Assembly (NCBI GenBank): GCA_039679645.1
Contig: JBDKUO010000066.1
Coordinates: 1-64,000, forward strand
DNA from: Armatimonadota bacterium
GTDB taxonomy: Bacteria; Armatimonadota; UBA5829
Direction: 5' to 3'
Length of the DNA stretch: 64,000 nt
The notes under the pieces were generated by a model that saw only the letters and a list, made by a program, of their open reading frames with translations, did no database searches and was not told the DNA's origin. The number at the start of each line of letters is the position of its first letter. Within the stretch, counting starts at the first letter, position 1. Made by a program: the position numbers and the translations under genes. This document shows, one piece after another, positions 54,069 to 64,000 of this stretch.

Positions 54069-54290
54069 ATGGAACAGTTGATTGCTAATTTAACGAATGC
54101 CGGGTTGATATCCGATGGGGTTATCAGGCTCGATGAGTACCAGTCTGTAGATGTGGCTACATTCGAGTCATTCTTTGGCTCCACAGACGGCAGTTACGCT
54201 CAGCTCTGCGCCGCCGACGACAATGGCGATGGCACTACCAAGGGCTACAAACGGTTCTTCGATGCTTGGAAACAGGCGGGCATACTCTAA
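54069..54290 (+). CDS. Hypothetical late protein with an EF-hand-like loop
   Basis: The 73-residue, mostly acidic protein follows AGGAGG. It contains AADDNGDGTTKGYKRF, whose D-x-N-x-D-G pattern resembles a calcium-binding loop, as found in dockerins and EF-hands. A single loop is not proof of metal binding. It overlaps nothing; the tail gene starts 11 bases later. Confidence 0.55.
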   Translation: MEQLIANLTNAGLISDGVIRLDEYQSVDVATFESFFGSTDGSYAQLCAADDNGDGTTKGYKRFFDAWKQAGIL

Positions 54291-54301
54291 AGGCTGGCGT
54301 C

Positions 54302-57217
54302 ATGCATTTCCCCAACATAGATTTTTCGGGCGGGCAGGTTGATCCCTCACTCTTGTTCACAGACAAGAGTGAGGCTATCAGCATGTCTGGGCTAGATCAT
54401 TCTGCCGGTAACCTACAGGTGATGAAGGCGCCTGAGATGATACCATTCGCGTCCGACAATCCTCTGAGCGGAGACGTGGCAGAGGGCTTTATCACACTCC
54501 GCGACTACGTAACACCAAACGGTGATACAGTCCTGGTCGGCAAGCGCGGCGGTAGTCTCTGGGTCGGCACACAACGGTCTTGGCGCAGAAAATTACTGTC
54601 AAATATGGACTGGGAATTCGATATGCTCGACTCCAATGAGATATCGTCCGGTTATGGTATCAATCTTCCAATTGGCGAGAATCACGGCACTGCTCCATAT
54701 AAGCTCAACAGAAATGGCAATGTCCGTTTCTTCGATGGCAATAGTTTCATCGAAACAAATGCTGCTGACGCTTCTTCTTGTGTTGGCATTATGTGTTTCA
54801 GCGTGTGGGTGAAACCTGATCATTCTGTGCTGGCTAGTGGCGTTGGTGTCAACATTGTGCTGATCAGGGACACTGGTCTTCAGATATTTCTGGCACTGCT
54901 GAGCGGACGAGTTTACGCTTATATCTCAGGGAAGAATAGTTCCGGAACTGCAGTCACATACAATACTTATGCGACTGCTGCATCTACATTAACGTCTGCT
55001 TGGCACTTGGTGCAAATAACTTGGACAAATGGACAGTATCCGGTTTTGTATGTTGATGGAGAAGCAGTTGCTGTGGTGAATACTGGCACGCTTGATATAC
55101 TCGCAGGCGTTTCAGTAAATGCCACAACTAAATTAGGGAAGGCTGATTACTATGGTGGCTTTCTCGGTCTTATGGGCACTGCGTCCTGCTATACGACACT
55201 TGTTCCTGATGGATTTCTTGATCAGTATGCTCACGAACTTCCCCGGTATCAAGATGCTGAGACTCCGATCACATGGAAACCACTGTTGGGACGGGCATAC
55301 TCAGGATCGGACAGCGTATATTTGGATTTACGAACATACTTGGGTGAACCCGAACAGTTTCAACAGGTAGGCAATAACCTATATTGCACGCCTATGCATG
55401 TGGCATCAGAAGACTATCCTATTCGATGGAGTGGCTTTTTTTATGATGCAGGTCGTGCTCAATCAACCAGCACCACTGTTACGCTGACTATACCATCGCA
55501 AGATAAAGCCTATGGATGGTATATAACCATAACTCCACAGAATGCAGGTATTCGTGCTGGCGACACAATCTATTTTGCGACATGGAATACCACTCTGTCT
55601 AGGTGGGTATGGGACTTAAAGAATGGTCGAGTTATCAAGAGTGTTTATTATGAAAGCTTTACCCTGGAGACTGGCTATGATACTACCGGCAAGGGGCATG
55701 CAGATGGTATATACTATGCTACTCAATTGCCGTATGTCATAGTCCGCACGCATCGTGTCGGAATGCCGGAAATGCCTGATCTGACCGCTGCATCGAGCGC
55801 TACGACCGGGACGCTGCCCGCAGGTAAATATGAGTATGTAGCTGAATATGGTAGTGATATGACAGGCTACAGTGGACTTGTCGCAATTAGCAATATTGTC
55901 ACTCTCTCTGCAGCAGCCAGTATTCAGGTCAGTGGATGGTCGACCACTGTGCCGGAAAAGGATGTTGATTGGCTTAAGATATACAGGTCGTATGATGACA
56001 ACTCAGGCTCTGGATTCGATACGCCGAAGCTCGTAAACAAGATTGCGCGAGCAGATATCTACACCGCTTTGACGCTGCCTGCGAACTGGACAGACACCGG
56101 TGTCACTGCGGATTCTGGCAATCCATTAGGTAGTGACTCAGATCTGCGTTCCCGACCTGGTGCGATATCCAATCTGATATATTTCAATGACCGGCTGTAT
56201 GGTTTCGATGGCGCTGACCTGGTGGCGTCTACGCTGGGTTATTACGAGTATTTTCCTACCGAGCAATGGAGCGCAACATCTTCATCGACTATCAATACGA
56301 ATATCGGTTTGCGTGTGCCGATAGGCTCCGGCACTCACGACCCTATTGTGGCTATCGTGCCGGAAGATGGCGCATATGAGACAACAGGTATCAAGGGTAG
56401 TGATCTCCTGCTTCTGCTCCGTAATCGTGCTGTCAGATGGTTCGGTGTCAATCTGGATGATTTTGACCGCGAACCGGCCTTTGCCGAAGGTGGAATATCA
56501 CAAGATTTTGCAATGAATGCCGGTGGTATGATCGTGTTCGGCTCGGATCATCACGTATTTGTGATGGCCTCAGGCAGCAATGCTCCGAACGCGGTGGAGG
56601 GTCGTCGATGGAGTCATGGACTGCCGGTAGGTGCGGATACACTCAAGAGGTGGAAGTGCGCATATTGGAACGGCTGGTATCTCTTCCTTGGAACTGAAAC
56701 TGAGGGTTCAGACCCCGATACATTCTATATGTTTAACGTCGCCAAAGGCACCTGGACAAGTGTTCCCGGCAATTACCTTGATATATTCGTGCCAAGCAAC
56801 GACCCTACTCGCAATGTGCTGGTTTCAGACGCAAATGGCAATGTTTATGATCTCTTTGCCTCAGCTACCGCGCAGAGTATAGAATACAAGACTGGTCGAC
56901 TTTCTCTGGAGTCATCTGCAGATGAGATTGTAGACGTTAAGCATATGCGCTTGGTGCGGATGTTCGTGCGTCCTGCAACTGCCAGTGACGTTGATCTGAC
57001 TATTACGACTTTAGGTGATAATGCAAGCAGCACTTCATCAAAAACTGTTACCGTGCCAAAAGGAACTGATCGGGTTTTAATAAAGGTTGAAGTTCCTATG
57101 GACGCAGTAAACCCGGCGCTTAAGATCACATCGGATACTGCTGTCTGGCCTTTTCAGATAGATATGTGCAATGTCGAATGCGCAGATCCACACGGTGACG
57201 GAACGGGGGTGAAGTAG
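54302..57217 (+). CDS. Large tail protein with an inserted LamG/concanavalin-like domain
   Basis: The 971-residue protein is beta-rich. Residues about 140-325 form a LamG-like sandwich: RFFDGNSFIETNAADAS, CFSVWVKPDHS, AWHLVQITWTNGQYPVLYVDGEAV and GTASCYTTLVPDGFLDQ. The remainder (KRGGSLWVGTQRSW at the start, LLLLLRNRAVRWFGVNLDDF and GMIVFGSDHHVFVMASGS later) has the beta-propeller look of tail nozzle proteins in the place of P22 gp10. The LamG part probably binds surface glycans. ATG 54302 follows AAAGG. Confidence 0.65.
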   Translation: MHFPNIDFSGGQVDPSLLFTDKSEAISMSGLDHSAGNLQVMKAPEMIPFASDNPLSGDVAEGFITLRDYVTPNGDTVLVGKRGGSLWVGTQRSWRRKLLSNMDWEFDMLDSNEISSGYGINLPIGENHGTAPYKLNRNGNVRFFDGNSFIETNAADASSCVGIMCFSVWVKPDHSVLASGVGVNIVLIRDTGLQIFLALLSGRVYAYISGKNSSGTAVTYNTYATAASTLTSAWHLVQITWTNGQYPVLYVDGEAVAVVNTGTLDILAGVSVNATTKLGKADYYGGFLGLMGTASCYTTLVPDGFLDQYAHELPRYQDAETPITWKPLLGRAYSGSDSVYLDLRTYLGEPEQFQQVGNNLYCTPMHVASEDYPIRWSGFFYDAGRAQSTSTTVTLTIPSQDKAYGWYITITPQNAGIRAGDTIYFATWNTTLSRWVWDLKNGRVIKSVYYESFTLETGYDTTGKGHADGIYYATQLPYVIVRTHRVGMPEMPDLTAASSATTGTLPAGKYEYVAEYGSDMTGYSGLVAISNIVTLSAAASIQVSGWSTTVPEKDVDWLKIYRSYDDNSGSGFDTPKLVNKIARADIYTALTLPANWTDTGVTADSGNPLGSDSDLRSRPGAISNLIYFNDRLYGFDGADLVASTLGYYEYFPTEQWSATSSSTINTNIGLRVPIGSGTHDPIVAIVPEDGAYETTGIKGSDLLLLLRNRAVRWFGVNLDDFDREPAFAEGGISQDFAMNAGGMIVFGSDHHVFVMASGSNAPNAVEGRRWSHGLPVGADTLKRWKCAYWNGWYLFLGTETEGSDPDTFYMFNVAKGTWTSVPGNYLDIFVPSNDPTRNVLVSDANGNVYDLFASATAQSIEYKTGRLSLESSADEIVDVKHMRLVRMFVRPATASDVDLTITTLGDNASSTSSKTVTVPKGTDRVLIKVEVPMDAVNPALKITSDTAVWPFQIDMCNVECADPHGDGTGVK

Positions 57218-58651
57218 ATGGGATTGTGGGGAAGCATCAAGAACACTGTAAAGAAAATTGCGAGTCCAGTGCTTACAGTCGCCGGTATTGCTACGGGCAA
57301 TCCTCTTCTGACTAAGGCGGGTCTTGCTGCTGGAACACTATCTGCTCTTAGTTCAAGTGGTTCCGGTGGGACTACTTCAAGCAGCACTGATCCCAATGCA
57401 GTGCTGCAAGGCTATGTCACTCAGATGGCTGACAACAAGCAGGGCTATTCCAATCTATACAACATACGCAATAACCAGTTAGGTGCGGTCGCGAGTGATC
57501 TACTTGGCTATGTGAACGGGGATAGCTCCAATACAAACGGCAGTGCGCCTGCTACGTTGTATGTGCCTACTTCTGACGAAGTGCTGTCGACTCGTCCAGA
57601 GCTGAAAACCTATGAGGGTTCCTTGGTTAATCCTACGAAGTCAGACTACACACTTAGTCCACGAATAGATACAACTACCGACCTGTCGAAAGCCACTGCG
57701 ACTCCAACTTCATCGGCTAATACCAACTTAGGGAAGCTCGGGCAGGTTGCCACGTATGACTCATCCGGTATGCCGAGTGCTGATACTTTACTTGGTGTGC
57801 TGAATGACACTCCAGACCCTGACCAGATAGAGTCCAAAGTTGTCAGGGCTTATAACCAAATCAATGACACTGACCTGAATAAGGAAGTAGCAGATCAGCA
57901 AGCAGAGCTGGACGCTGATGCAGCTCGCAGAGGTCTTACAGGCTCAAATATCAGCAATAGTGCAAAGATAGGGCTTCGCAACTGGCAACGTTCTACAGGC
58001 GCGGAACAGGGTGCTGAAGGTGTCCTTGCCGGTATAAATGCCGCTGCGAATGCACGATCTGAGCGAACGTCTAACGCTGAGGCCGCAGATACTGCTCAAA
58101 TGAACCGTTATGAGCTTGCTCAGGACTTGGCTTCGAAGAATCGGGAAGCACAGGAGAACTATGCCAATTCTCTTGATACGCAGGATACGAACCTGCGCCA
58201 AGAGGCAATCGATAGAATGCTCAAACAGCAGGAGGCTAATCTTGCTGAGAATCAGGATCGCAAAACACAAGACCAGTCACAATCTGATCTCAATAGAGAG
58301 TATTGGAACGATGTAAACAATACTACCGGTCAGAACCGGGATTGGTTCAACGAGGATCAGAGTGCAAAGGATTCCCGTTGGTTGAGCGATGAAGCAATAG
58401 CGTCCGACCTGCACAACGAAAAGACTCAGAATATGTGGAATGCGCTCAATTGGCTCAGCAGCGATACTAACCGATTAGGTGAGGCTGCTGACCTGACACC
58501 ACTTATAAATGCTGAGAACGGTGTCATATCTAATAATAACCAGGCTTCACAGATTGCATCGCAGAATAGTGCCAACAAGAATAACTTGTGGGCTGCCCTG
58601 TTGAGTGCTGCCGGAACAGCTTATGGAGCATACAAGGGGGCAAAGTCATAA
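57218..58651 (+). CDS. Probable ejection (internal virion) protein 1
   Basis: The 477-residue protein starts with an amphipathic helix (MGLWGSIKNTVKKIASPVLT) and a short hydrophobic region (GLAAGTLSALSSSG). A long Gln/Asn/Asp-rich helical body with coiled-coil repeats (EAIDRMLKQQEANLAENQDR) follows, and a small hydrophobic C-terminus (WAALLSAAGTAYGAYKG). This build, and its place after the tail genes, resembles P22-like ejection proteins that enter the host envelope with the DNA. Confidence 0.6.
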   Translation: MGLWGSIKNTVKKIASPVLTVAGIATGNPLLTKAGLAAGTLSALSSSGSGGTTSSSTDPNAVLQGYVTQMADNKQGYSNLYNIRNNQLGAVASDLLGYVNGDSSNTNGSAPATLYVPTSDEVLSTRPELKTYEGSLVNPTKSDYTLSPRIDTTTDLSKATATPTSSANTNLGKLGQVATYDSSGMPSADTLLGVLNDTPDPDQIESKVVRAYNQINDTDLNKEVADQQAELDADAARRGLTGSNISNSAKIGLRNWQRSTGAEQGAEGVLAGINAAANARSERTSNAEAADTAQMNRYELAQDLASKNREAQENYANSLDTQDTNLRQEAIDRMLKQQEANLAENQDRKTQDQSQSDLNREYWNDVNNTTGQNRDWFNEDQSAKDSRWLSDEAIASDLHNEKTQNMWNALNWLSSDTNRLGEAADLTPLINAENGVISNNNQASQIASQNSANKNNLWAALLSAAGTAYGAYKGAKS

Positions 58652-60231
58652 TGAGCAACACCGGATTATCTATAACGGCAGGACTCCTTCAGGGAGTCGG
58701 CAACTATTATGATGCTCTCAATCAGGGTCGTCGGCAGAAACGTCAAGACAAAGAGGATAAGGAAGACCGGGACTATACGATTACGGAACGCAAGAAGAAA
58801 GACCTGTCCGATCTTGCTGCCAACTTTGATGACGTCAATTGGCAACTCTCCACGACGCCCGAGCAGCAGCAGACAGCACTTCAGCAATATAACGCAGGCG
58901 CGGCAGAAGTAGGTCTGCCTCAACGTCAGATACGTGATCTTGTTCCCGATGCTATGCTCAACGATGTGATGAAGTTGAAGCAGGCTGGGTATTGTGCTGA
59001 TCAAACAAAAGTCTTCCTGGCAAAGACATATGGCAATGATCGGCTTCAACAGTTCCTGGGCGGGCAGATGATGCCAAGCGTTCCTCAGTCACAGCAAAAT
59101 CCAGCAACTGCGAGTGATCTTGCCAATGCTTCTACACAACAGGCTCCGGCGAGTGCCGCTGCACCTGGTACGCAGGTTTCCACTCCCCAATATCCTGCAT
59201 ATCTTAGCTCGAACTATCTGGGCGGTTTGGATACCGGATCGATGCAAGACAATCAGGCCGCTCCTACGTCTGCTGTGGCCGGTAGCACTGAAGAGGTAGG
59301 TCAACAGCCATCAGATGCAACGGTATCGTCTGACACGTTGTCTACATTGTTCACTCCATTGAGCAATTCCAAGACTGTGACGGCAGATAGAAAAATGCTG
59401 GGAAGTGCTATCGTAAATGGCACGATGTCCAACAAAGATGCTGTCGGCTGGTGGAGTAAGAATCATCCTGATATTCAGACACCTGACGAACTGTTTTTAC
59501 TCAAACCGAAGCCGTCTGTGACGAACCAAGTCAACAAGTTTTCGGCAGAGGATAAGAAAGATGCTCGCAAGTATTATCGTCAAATGCGACAACAGGCTAT
59601 GCAGGGTAAGGTTTCAAAGGATGAATGGTATAGTGATCCTATCCTTAAGGTAAACAAGTTTCCTGGGCTTTCTTCTGCTGCGCAGTTATCCCAGGATAAG
59701 ACTGAGCAGGCTATGACACTTGCGATGGCTGCAAGCGATAGGGCAAATGCTGCGGCTGATCGGGCGGCGGCGAGGGCTGCACGTGGCAGTGGTGACAGCC
59801 GGAGTGGAAACGGCAGCAAAAGCGGCGTTGGCGGATCATCCGCGTCTAAGATGTCCGCAAAAGACAGAGGTATGGCTCAAAGATATGGCTTCAGCAGCGC
59901 ATCTATCAACGCCGCTCCGCAAGAGGTGCTAAATAATATCGGCGTGATGATGAGCAGAGGACAGATTAAGCATGGTAAAGCAGGAAACTACGTCACTCCT
60001 GCAGGTCGGAAGGCTGTTATGGCTGTAAATGCCAAGTATGGTGGCAAGTCTGTGTCTTCCGTGTCCACTTCATTTAGAACCCAGAGACCAGTGAATGAGA
60101 TAAAATCCGCACTACAGGCGAATCCATCATATACGTGGGGCGAGTTCTGGTCTGACGTCCAGGCAGAGCATCCGGGTTGGAACAAAAAAGCCGTTTATGC
60201 AGTGTATCAGTCAGCCAAGCGAGGTCGGTAA
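58651..60231 (+). CDS. Probable ejection (internal virion) protein 2
   Basis: The 526-residue protein starts MSNTGLSITAGLLQGVGNYY at an ATG overlapping the previous stop, with GGGGG upstream. A charged coiled coil (RRQKRQDKEDKEDRDYTITERKKKDL), Gln/Ala/Pro/Ser-rich linkers and helical Lys-rich parts follow, with a Gly/Ser hinge near residue 400. The last 100 residues form a separate helical domain (YTWGEFWSDVQAEHPGWNKKAVYAVYQSAK). No tape-measure features. The inference of ejection rests on order and composition. Confidence 0.55.
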   Translation: MSNTGLSITAGLLQGVGNYYDALNQGRRQKRQDKEDKEDRDYTITERKKKDLSDLAANFDDVNWQLSTTPEQQQTALQQYNAGAAEVGLPQRQIRDLVPDAMLNDVMKLKQAGYCADQTKVFLAKTYGNDRLQQFLGGQMMPSVPQSQQNPATASDLANASTQQAPASAAAPGTQVSTPQYPAYLSSNYLGGLDTGSMQDNQAAPTSAVAGSTEEVGQQPSDATVSSDTLSTLFTPLSNSKTVTADRKMLGSAIVNGTMSNKDAVGWWSKNHPDIQTPDELFLLKPKPSVTNQVNKFSAEDKKDARKYYRQMRQQAMQGKVSKDEWYSDPILKVNKFPGLSSAAQLSQDKTEQAMTLAMAASDRANAAADRAAARAARGSGDSRSGNGSKSGVGGSSASKMSAKDRGMAQRYGFSSASINAAPQEVLNNIGVMMSRGQIKHGKAGNYVTPAGRKAVMAVNAKYGGKSVSSVSTSFRTQRPVNEIKSALQANPSYTWGEFWSDVQAEHPGWNKKAVYAVYQSAKRGR

Positions 60232-63200
60232 TGAGTCTATTAAGTCGGGCAAAAGCACGCAAGCAAACAGCTTCTAATGATGATGGAGGACTTGTTAAAA
60301 GGGCACGAGCCAGAGCGATACAGGAGAAAGGCGGCTCATCCACCAACTGGCAAGCAGTCGGGAACGGTTCTGCTTCTCATATATATGATCCAAATGAACG
60401 TTCGATGCGTATTATTGCGAATGCGGAGACTGTTCATAAGAATGCACGATCCAAGAAGCCATCCAAGTTCGAGCAACGTTTAGACCAGGCAACTGAAGCA
60501 AAGGCTGACAAGATACTCGGTAAGGACACACGACCCTTGAGAGTCGTTGAAACGCCCACACAAACTGCTGTTCGTGAAGCAATGCCAGATGTCGTGCCCG
60601 TGCCAAAAAGTACACTCGGAGAAAGCCAGAAAACACAAATCGGCAAGATCGGCGATAGGCTTATGCAGCATCCTGACGAAGTAGATGCAAAGATCGCCGC
60701 AGCAAATCTTGATGATGAATCGAAACAATATCTTTCGCAATATATACAAGGTGCGCAGATGCTTGCAGAGCCGTCCAGCCGTGATGTTCTGATTCAGGGC
60801 ATATTGGGCATTCCAGGCTTAAACTTGGTTCCAGCGGTAGGCAAAGCCGGAGAAGCTGTCATAGGCACAATCGAAAAGGGTGTAAGTAATCCCGTCGCCC
60901 GGCTTGCTGCCAAGACTGGTGTGAGAGCGGTTCAAGGTGGTATAGAAGGTGCTGTCGCCAGTGAAGCGGCCAGCATCCCTGATGCCATAGAACATCCGAG
61001 AGAGTGGATTAAAGCACAGCCTCAGATAGTTGGTGGCGGCGCTCTTATGGGTGCTGCCGGTCATGCTATACTCCGGCCTATATTGGAAAGTATCGAGAAT
61101 GCGCCTAAGAAAATATCTGATGCCAAAACACGAGCGATTCTATCTGACGCGGTTATAAAGGCTGAACAAGGTGATAACGTAGCATCCGCCGAGCGTTTCA
61201 ATGAGGGCCTTAATCGTATTCACGAATACAAGAACCTGCCCGAAGATCAGAAAACTAATGTATTTGGAAAGATCATCAATCGGCTTGGTGAGATGTCCAA
61301 ATCGCGGGAAGCAGTTACCAAAATTCCAGAGAGCGCGGAACCAGAAGCCAATACCGCTCCTGAGCAGGTGGAAACTGGCACACCTCATGTGTCTCCTACA
61401 CTGGGTATTGTCGAGCCTACAAAGGTTGTCGGCAAGGATGTTATCGCAAAAACTGAGCGAGGAACATACGTCAATATTCCTGCGGATCAGTTTGACGGCG
61501 TTCCCGTGCATCAGCAGGAAGTCACCCCAGCTCCTGAGCCCGCCGCGCAGGAAGTTCCTCAGTCTCCGACTGATCGTAGGATAAATATACTTTCTAACTG
61601 GTTCAACAAACTTGATGAGGCTAATGCTGACCCTGCGAAGTTCCAAGAAGTAAGTCATGAAGTCCGTCGCGTCTGGGATGCTACAAACGCCAAGCTGCAG
61701 AAGTATTATGATGCTGAGCCTGCGCTGCTGGAAGAGTCTACCCACTATCCCGAAATGACACCGGAACAACAGCAGGCATTCAAGGCTAAGTATGATGCCT
61801 TTTATGAGAACCGAAACAACATGGAGAATATGGTTGAACAGATGCAGGCGCATCCTGTAGTGCAAAAGTTGCAAGCGTTGGATGCTGAGCAGGCACAACA
61901 GGATGCAATCAAGCAGGCTGCTGAGGATGTCAAAGAGCAGAATCGACAGGCCTACCAGTTCGGCGCTCCCAGCAAGTCAGATGTGCCGGTTTTCTCTAAG
62001 AATGATTCGACCGGCGTGATAGGGAAGACCCGCCTGAAAGGTTATGACTGGAATGAGGTCGCCGATTCGCTTGGCATGACCAAAGAGCAGATAGGCGATA
62101 TCATACAAAAGAATGCTCCCAAGATACCGGCGTTCGATAATCGTCGTTATGGAAACGAAGTCACGGGTTGGCGTAGACCTGGGGAACCTACATCCGACTT
62201 CATGACTGTAGAAGAGGCGAAAGTGTTGTCTAGAGCACTTGGCCTTAAGATAAATACCAAGGGAGCAGAACCCACAGCTCCTGTTGCCACGATAAAGCAA
62301 ACTTCGGCAGTTACACCGGAATCGGAGGTTACAAATGATACGCAAAACACCGAAAGGTTACAAGGTGGTCATTCACTCGGTCAAGAACCTGAGCAAGCCG
62401 AACTTGAGCAAGTTCCAAGCGGAGAGACTACTCCAGCAGGTGGAATGCTTCAAGCACCAGGGCAAGTAAAGCCGATTCCTGGTGTGGAAAAACACGTCGA
62501 CCTAGCTAACCGGCTTACCACTAGACTTCATGAGGATAAGCCCATCGACTGGCGCGAACTGACTTCTATGGCCGATGACACGTTCGGTGGCACTGAGGCT
62601 GCGGGAACATACAATGCACGCGACAAGGCCGATGCTCTTGAGGCCGCAGTCAATGCTCATATTCGGGAGAATGCTCCTGATATCATGAGTTGGCCACACG
62701 AGAAGGCTGTGACCTGGCTCGAACATCTGCAATCCAAACTGCCTACCCAAACAGCAAACGATAGGACAGAAACACAAGTGGAGTTGCAGCAGTTCAGCAC
62801 TCCACCGGCAGAGGCATTTGCCGCTGCTAAGGCGTTGGGGGATATCAACGGAAAAACGGCGCTCGAACCGTCTGCTGGAACTGGAAACCTGGCTAATTTC
62901 CTGCGAATTGGTGGCGCGAAGGTTACAACAAACGAATACCCAGGTGAGGGTGGCAACGTGCGTGCCGGGCTTCTTGCTGCTCAGAATTATCCTGTTACAC
63001 GGCAGGATGCGGAAATCCTGAACGCCTTGTCGCCGGAAAAATATGATGTGGTCTTAATGAATCCGCCTTTCTCTGCCACTGGTGGCAGGGTTAAGGCGCA
63101 CAAAACAGCATTCGGTGCGAAGCACGTTGAAGCTGCTCTTGATATGCTGAAACCTGGCGGCCGCCTGGTCGCTATTGTGGGTCGTGGTATGGGCGATAAC

Positions 63201-64000
63201 ACTCCGACCTTCCACAAGTGGTTTGATGATATGAGCAAGCGATATGCTTACAGAGCAAACCTACTTGTTGACGGGTCTGCATACTCAAAATATGGCACGA
63301 CATTCGACAACAGAATACTCGTGTTTGACAATACTGAGCCTTCAGGGTATAAAGAGACTGATCCACAATTGTTCTCTGACGAACCCCTGAGCGTTCAGGA
63401 TGTAGCCGATAGGCTTAAGGAGTTAGGTAAGAATGGACCGGAAGTCACTGAAACAAGCAGTAGCGAAAGCGGATCTACACCTAAAGAGGTTGCAGGAAGC
63501 CAACCAACTGCCCCTAAACAAAGTTGCATACGAAATACTGAGCAAAAATCACTGGATGGAATATTACTTCCAGGGAAGTCTGATCTGGGTGAATCTGGCG
63601 TTCAAGGAGTGGCAGGAAGCAATGGTTCAGGAACAGTGGTTTCCGGACGATCTGGCAAACAACATATATCTGATGTGGTCGAGCGAGAAAGACCCGGTAA
63701 GGGCAACAACGGAAATCACGAAAGCACTTCAGGACGAGGGGTATCAACCGAAGGATCTTCTGGCAATGTCGGGGGACGAAGCAATGGTGACGTTGAGAGA
63801 TCTGGCGATAGAACTGGCACGCAGCCAGATGTAAATGTCGAAGAACACGTAACTCGACAGACTGGCGGCGACAACTCCGTCGTTGAGAACAACGATACAT
63901 TCCAGACCTACAAGGCCGAGATAGGCAACGGCAATCCGCATCCATCCAAACTTGTCGAGACAGGTTCTATGGGCGGCGTTAAGACTCCGCTTGTGAATCT
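60231..64000 (+). CDS. Giant polyvalent protein, DarB-like: virion N-terminus, N6-adenine methyltransferase, start of helicase (partial, runs off the window)
   Basis: The frame is open for 1256 codons to the window end. Residues 1-500 are helical with a hydrophobic patch (LIQGILGIPGLNLVPAVGKA, GGGALMGAAGHAILRPIL) like an ejection protein. Residues about 860-1010 are an N6-adenine methyltransferase: motif I EPSAGTGN at 879, catalytic NPPF at 944-947, then HVEAALDMLKPGGRLVAIVG. A Gly/Ser/Thr/Arg-rich linker follows (1065-1205). From H1237, HPSKLVETGSMGGVKTPLVN resembles the opening of Strawberry-notch-type helicases, as in phage P1 DarB. DarB is packaged in virions and protects DNA from type I restriction. 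The ATG overlaps the previous stop. Confidence 0.8.
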   Translation, partial: MSLLSRAKARKQTASNDDGGLVKRARARAIQEKGGSSTNWQAVGNGSASHIYDPNERSMRIIANAETVHKNARSKKPSKFEQRLDQATEAKADKILGKDTRPLRVVETPTQTAVREAMPDVVPVPKSTLGESQKTQIGKIGDRLMQHPDEVDAKIAAANLDDESKQYLSQYIQGAQMLAEPSSRDVLIQGILGIPGLNLVPAVGKAGEAVIGTIEKGVSNPVARLAAKTGVRAVQGGIEGAVASEAASIPDAIEHPREWIKAQPQIVGGGALMGAAGHAILRPILESIENAPKKISDAKTRAILSDAVIKAEQGDNVASAERFNEGLNRIHEYKNLPEDQKTNVFGKIINRLGEMSKSREAVTKIPESAEPEANTAPEQVETGTPHVSPTLGIVEPTKVVGKDVIAKTERGTYVNIPADQFDGVPVHQQEVTPAPEPAAQEVPQSPTDRRINILSNWFNKLDEANADPAKFQEVSHEVRRVWDATNAKLQKYYDAEPALLEESTHYPEMTPEQQQAFKAKYDAFYENRNNMENMVEQMQAHPVVQKLQALDAEQAQQDAIKQAAEDVKEQNRQAYQFGAPSKSDVPVFSKNDSTGVIGKTRLKGYDWNEVADSLGMTKEQIGDIIQKNAPKIPAFDNRRYGNEVTGWRRPGEPTSDFMTVEEAKVLSRALGLKINTKGAEPTAPVATIKQTSAVTPESEVTNDTQNTERLQGGHSLGQEPEQAELEQVPSGETTPAGGMLQAPGQVKPIPGVEKHVDLANRLTTRLHEDKPIDWRELTSMADDTFGGTEAAGTYNARDKADALEAAVNAHIRENAPDIMSWPHEKAVTWLEHLQSKLPTQTANDRTETQVELQQFSTPPAEAFAAAKALGDINGKTALEPSAGTGNLANFLRIGGAKVTTNEYPGEGGNVRAGLLAAQNYPVTRQDAEILNALSPEKYDVVLMNPPFSATGGRVKAHKTAFGAKHVEAALDMLKPGGRLVAIVGRGMGDNTPTFHKWFDDMSKRYAYRANLLVDGSAYSKYGTTFDNRILVFDNTEPSGYKETDPQLFSDEPLSVQDVADRLKELGKNGPEVTETSSSESGSTPKEVAGSQPTAPKQSCIRNTEQKSLDGILLPGKSDLGESGVQGVAGSNGSGTVVSGRSGKQHISDVVERERPGKGNNGNHESTSGRGVSTEGSSGNVGGRSNGDVERSGDRTGTQPDVNVEEHVTRQTGGDNSVVENNDTFQTYKAEIGNGNPHPSKLVETGSMGGVKTPLVN
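63433..63834 (+). CDS. Overprinted ORF in the polyvalent-protein linker, 133 residues
   Basis: An ATG at 63433 with AAGGAG at 63417-63422 (10 bases upstream) opens a frame shifted by +1 from the giant gene. Its product starts MDRKSLKQAVAKADLHLKRL and has the mix of Trp, Phe, Tyr, Leu and charged residues of a folded helical protein (YYFQGSLIWVNLAFKEWQEA, DLANNIYLMWSSEKDP, MVTLRDLAIELARSQM). The giant frame in the same DNA is low-complexity Gly/Ser/Thr/Asn/Arg. That contrast suggests two functional frames. Function unknown. The alternative is a chance open frame over repetitive codons. Confidence 0.5.
   Translation: MDRKSLKQAVAKADLHLKRLQEANQLPLNKVAYEILSKNHWMEYYFQGSLIWVNLAFKEWQEAMVQEQWFPDDLANNIYLMWSSEKDPVRATTEITKALQDEGYQPKDLLAMSGDEAMVTLRDLAIELARSQM

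Follow-up and report, generated by a model that had tools for sequence, protein, structure and literature searches.

A phage methyltransferase-strawberry-notch-helicase gene very likely harbours in its +1 frame, at positions 63433-63834 of the window (the whole 64,000-nucleotide stretch of DNA that was analysed), a second, genuine protein-coding gene, whose product would be a divergent member of a widespread, unannotated protein family. There is no direct evidence that this second gene is translated. The computations do show that the interval carries coding signal beyond chance. They also show, for the family as a whole, that position, start and frame are conserved, that the hidden frame is under purifying selection and that the long frame is kept open. 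Same-strand nesting at this length, with conservation over deep divergence, has rarely been documented for genes of prokaryotes and their viruses, and gene callers usually reject such genes.

The enclosing gene

The window is part of contig C66 (115,667 bases), which belongs to a bacterial genome of 3.4 Mb, and the stretch at around 43-71 kb is a prophage. A helicase loader, terminase, portal and major head protein were recognised upstream of the giant gene that encloses the hidden ORF, and an amidase was recognised downstream of it in the same prophage. At window positions 54266-58648, upstream of the giant gene, lie the genes of two large proteins of the prophage, 983 and 477 aa long, neither of which had a PHROG match.

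The giant gene likely starts at the ATG at 60231, which overlaps the stop of the upstream gene. This start is inferred; counted from it, the product is 3358 aa. The order of its domains is an N-terminal region, a methyltransferase, a linker, a strawberry-notch helicase and a C-terminal region, with Pfam matches to MTS, AAA_34 and Helicase_C_4, the last two of which form the strawberry-notch pair. The Gly/Ser/Thr/Asn-rich long-frame linker separates the MTS match of the methyltransferase from the AAA_34 match of the helicase (Table 1), and in relatives it is poorly conserved, yet always open.

Table 1. Features of the hidden gene and its surroundings (window positions unless stated otherwise)
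Feature	Position	Strand	Description
Giant polyvalent gene	60231..64000 in window, on to contig position 70307	+	ORF 60177..70307 on C66
Methyltransferase core (MTS match)	62994..63194	+	NPPF motif at ~63060
Shine-Dalgarno (SD) sequence of hidden gene	63417..63422	+	AAGGAG, 10 nt before ATG; anti-SD energy -8.7 kcal/mol
Linker, long-frame reading of hidden stretch	63432..63833	+	Gly/Ser/Thr/Asn-rich, open, atypical codon usage
Hidden overlapping gene (very likely)	63433..63834	+	+1 frame relative to long ORF; 133 codons, 133 aa; predicted helical globular product
AAA_34 (strawberry-notch) helicase domain, start	63936..64000, extends past window	+	Pfam match

Coding signal in the hidden frame

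The hidden ORF is closed by a TAA at 63832-63834, and an in-frame TAG lies just upstream of its ATG, at 63424. An earlier note, made from sequence alone, had claimed an ATG with a good ribosome binding site followed by 133 open codons in the +1 frame, and a long frame of Gly/Ser/Thr/Asn low complexity between two enzyme domains. Both claims held, the ribosome binding site being the AAGGAG of Table 1 and the two domains being those of the MTS and AAA_34 matches.

The training set of a three-periodic Markov model comprised 271 host genes, prophage genes and the remainder of the giant gene. Under this model the long frame scores best on both flanks, and the +1 frame scores best only within ~63500-63740. 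The +1 frame reached 0.048 bits/nt, compared with 0.073 +/- 0.033 for true genes, and lay above all 173 control +1 intervals (-0.39 +/- 0.14, maximum -0.037), while the long frame over the hidden stretch scored under all 173 true-frame intervals. A comparable Markov signal was absent from the antisense ORF at 63514-63945 and from the remaining frames. By a codon score in which stops were ignored, the hidden frame scored 0.172, within the range of real genes (0.147 +/- 0.076), and the maximum among 693 control +1 intervals was 0.045.

Stops in the +1 frame require long-frame codons with a middle T, and hydrophilic linkers are therefore often open in +1, which makes openness alone weak evidence. 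When the long frame of the window linker was recoded synonymously, 5.2% of the recodings remained open in +1; elsewhere in the genome, 2 of 693 +1 intervals were open. By contrast, the codon score of the hidden frame was reached in 0 of 20,000 such recodings, a composition-aware null.

A conserved family at one site

Scanning viral contigs with a methyltransferase-helicase profile yielded 80 loci, and in most of these the linker contains a +1 ORF 100-160 codons long. In cluster-out searches, for which the profile was built without the cluster being tested, 61 of the 80 matched at E<1e-3, and the significant matches were confined to the linker and the +1 frame. The family consensus is NxxPLNxxAxxxL...PxxLxxLQLxxWxLExG, and the start codons mostly lie 117-120 codons past NPPF. 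Since the first set of start sites had been picked partly by SD score, the test was rerun with starts chosen by position alone; these had a median anti-SD energy of -9.3, versus -3.6 for other +1 ATGs (p=1e-23). At L055/L056, L067 and L108 a +1 ORF stands at the right place with a much diverged sequence, which suggests fast evolution or several subfamilies of hidden protein.

If codons for the hidden protein are drawn at random among synonyms, the long frame stays open with a median probability of 0.002 across members. For the window, 0 of 2000 recodings of the hidden protein did so, with 10.5 stops expected. No member has a long-frame stop despite this low probability, and both frames are thus maintained. 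The calculation takes the hidden protein as given, and if the long frame came first its openness is unsurprising. Even in that case, it remains surprising that the long frame stays open while its residues drift.

Of 13 genomes or records with such loci, 12 have exactly one place that the family profile finds, the known one; the thirteenth had entered the set via a fragmentary locus. Eleven homologues on alphaproteobacterial or Nostoc plasmids (L031, L032, L134-L142) have linkers without a family match. In the helicase tree, all but one of the placeable non-carrier plasmid homologues fall in one clade with the viral loci L109 and L116, and carriers of the hidden gene make up most of the remainder. 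The root of this tree is unknown, so gain versus loss of the hidden gene cannot be polarised. The window sits on a long branch with seven viral loci, the +1 ORFs of which are weak or undetected by the profile.

Selection on the hidden frame

Plasmid homologues from Methylomonas and Methylotuvimicrobium have a linker that is likewise Gly/Ser-rich and likewise open in +1, with a conserved ATG within the codons for EGIRND and a conserved, helical-looking hidden product. All 13 distinct Methylococcales-type plasmid or genome loci have a +1 ORF of exactly 114 codons and share the same hidden ATG and a GGAG-type SD sequence. Methylotuvimicrobium buryatense 5G and M. alcaliphilum 20Z are among the carriers of the hidden gene.

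Close comparisons among these loci allowed substitutions to be classed by their effect in both frames, with rates expressed per site. Changes that are silent in the hidden frame and alter the long frame occurred at 0.551 per site, whereas changes that alter the hidden frame occurred at 0.162 per site if silent in the long frame and at 0.153 if not. Thus, per site, substitutions silent in the hidden frame only outnumber those of the reverse class about 3.4-fold, which shows purifying selection on the hidden frame. The same test shows no detectable constraint on the long-frame linker residues of the Methylococcales-type loci. For changes silent in both frames, all pairs together offered no more than 104 sites, and this class is uninterpretable. 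The bias ran in the same direction in 19 of 19 phage or plasmid pairs, and also in L083/L090, a pair from the window's own helicase clade; the pairs of phage ORFs share sequences and are not independent.

Membership of the window ORF

By position and frame, the window ORF behaves as a family member, being in +1 between the methyltransferase and helicase domains. Its start is also in keeping with the family, as it lies 124 codons after NPPF (~119 in the family) and is preceded by an SD sequence. Support from the protein sequence is modest, and would be weak if taken alone. Against a family profile built without it, the window ORF scored 15.9 bits, above 2000 shuffles of itself, in an alignment that spans residues 18-109 and includes the NQLPLNKVAYEIL motif, and hhalign gave E 2.7e-4. 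The profile E-value was modest, at 0.0018 among 2021 sequences and, in the wider cluster-out search, 0.073 at Z=10,000, and in a whole-genome search with the family profile the window ORF fell short of E 0.001. The profile that separated it from its shuffles was made from a hand-chosen core of 41 members, while an initial one, derived from a loose alignment, had failed to do so; membership by sequence thus depends somewhat on the choice of core. The window ORF also went unrecognised by a profile made from the helicase clade to which the window itself belongs.

Direct searches with the window ORF by tblastn against phages, in viral and genome contigs, in Pfam and in PHROGs were empty. A viral scan started from a single sequence returned that sequence alone. 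One relative genome gave a weak match (28% over 75 aa, E 7.7e-4). The family profile had no match in 250 genomes of the phylum, a null result that says little since the window's own copy is sub-threshold in that search. As the window ORF has no close relative, selection cannot be measured on it alone.

Predicted product and possible function

AlphaFold2, run with the family alignment, predicts a confident helical fold for the window ORF (pLDDT 89.8, pTM 0.81), and a phage member was modelled with similar scores (pLDDT 86.2, pTM 0.81). The two models have corresponding helices in the same order; only the order was compared, without superposition. Having been built on the family alignment, the window model cannot count as independent support for membership. 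No Pfam, PHROGs or NCBIfam family was matched by more than one member of the hidden family, and no fold match was found among PDB structures or in a viral structure library. Over 62 members of the hidden family, the median pI is 4.8 and the net charge -6.

We propose that ribosomes may enter the long mRNA internally, at the AAGGAG...ATG, so that a separate, mostly acidic helical protein of ~15 kDa would be made alongside the giant protein. The disordered long-frame linker would then be a by-product of carrying the hidden gene. The hidden product is likely an accessory protein of the methyltransferase-helicase, an inference that rests on the strict linkage of the two in phages and plasmids and for which there are no functional data. 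Its most likely role, also inferred, would be that of a binding partner or regulator of the enzyme during DNA entry or anti-restriction.

Alternative explanations

Could the hidden ORF be a chance open frame, left open by default and meaningless because a hydrophilic, low-complexity linker lacks codons with a middle T? The 5.2% of recodings that stay open, and the two open +1 intervals among 693, show that openness of this kind does arise. Chance is nonetheless a very improbable explanation, since it does not account for a codon score that 0 of 20,000 recodings reach or for relatives that keep the start, length and protein sequence with selection on the hidden frame, and at the family level it is contradicted by the frame-specific substitution rates. 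Another possibility is that the +1 peptide is an old in-frame domain thrown out of frame by two compensating indels or assembly errors, which would explain a globular frame within a long frame of poor codon usage without a new gene. This can be all but ruled out, as more than 60 loci from isolates, MAGs and viral contigs share the two-frame layout together with the hidden start, SD sequence and stop, and no homologue examined has the peptide in the long frame.

The layout of a phage methylase gene with a stop-free insert and an ordered out-of-frame product is also that of the ShiLan element (PMC11855218), and the hidden gene might accordingly be a selfish insertion, namely a homing endonuclease encoded out of frame in an in-frame insert. 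We consider this very unlikely. No HNH or other endonuclease family or fold was matched in Pfam, PHROGs, NCBIfam or the structure libraries; the gene occurs as one copy per genome at the same site across a deep helicase tree and is not patchy; and it has a strong SD sequence, which ShiLan lacks. It is harder to dismiss the idea that the gene is real and encodes a stand-alone anti-defence factor, such as an acidic DNA mimic acting against restriction enzymes, that merely shares the transcript. The acidity of the family and the DarB-type antirestriction class of the host gene (PMC5512222) speak for it. We still regard it as unlikely, since several members (L053, L074 and L047) are neutral or basic, no known antirestriction protein in Pfam or PHROGs is matched, and strict linkage to one gene suggests a partner. 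A nested gene for an accessory protein of the enclosing enzyme remains the preferred reading.

Relation to known systems

The nearest analogue is the ShiLan domain with its hidden HNH endonuclease (PMC11855218). In both cases a phage DNA methylase gene contains a stop-free stretch that encodes an ordered protein out of frame and reads as disordered in the long frame. ShiLan, a homing HNH insert, lacks a detectable SD sequence, whereas the family described here has one, is predicted to be helical, shows no sign of being a nuclease and occupies a fixed interdomain site in phages and plasmids of many lineages. The Rpn gene-within-gene antitoxins (PMC10327210) similarly arise from an internal translation start inside a larger gene, but they are in-frame C-terminal domains of the same protein, while the hidden gene is in another frame.

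The enclosing gene resembles the DarB-type methylase-helicase dyads of polyvalent proteins (PMC5512222), in which a methyltransferase is fused to an SF2/SWI2-SNF2 ATPase, and it fits that definition, with an SF2 helicase fused at the C terminus of the methyltransferase. That study names a Methylomonas strawberry-notch example of the dyad; the words "overlap" and "linker" do not occur in it, and its sole "reading frame" passage concerns separate ORFs. As the helicase is of the strawberry-notch type (AAA_34 and Helicase_C_4), the enclosing gene is a relative of the DarB dyad and not an orthologue of P1 DarB, and no forward-frame ORF of P1 darB matched the hidden-family profile. The "DarB-like" label of the earlier note is thus refined. 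The comparative data in the family support the note's claim of overprinting, in which one frame is under constraint and the other tolerates change. The note had named as refutation homologues that lack the frame or its start, variation that follows the long frame only and a small product without homologues, and the opposite was found. The function it suggested, a partner of the methyltransferase/helicase or an anti-defence factor, remains an inference.

The hidden gene is unlisted in the annotations and family libraries checked and undescribed in the literature searched; most subscription papers were outside the scope of that search, which is no proof of novelty. A bolder reading is that a large undescribed family exists only overprinted in phage and plasmid methyltransferase-strawberry-notch genes, has a new helical fold and is an obligate, internally translated partner of the enzyme that protects incoming DNA; we would not wager on this reading over its negation, or the reverse. 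With this gene the DarB-type anti-restriction machinery gains an unannotated component, one that is amenable to testing by mutations that are silent in the long frame. The single fixed site amounts to dozens of replicates made by nature, each with one frame under constraint and another that need only stay open, and hence to a clean system for the study of overprinting and of the origin of disordered linkers.

Observations on individual plasmid and genome loci

The gene table of a Thioflavicoccus plasmid (L045 1843-6544), which is known to be incomplete, is blank over the methyltransferase and the first part of the helicase, where the hidden ORF lies. The locus L035, from a MAG labelled Syntrophobacteraceae, is 74% identical to the methanotroph plasmid version, which may reflect cross-phylum transfer or mis-binning. 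In the Methylococcales linkers of L030 (2057-2800) and L043, an extra in-frame segment of ~100 residues with normal composition in the long frame follows right after the hidden stop.
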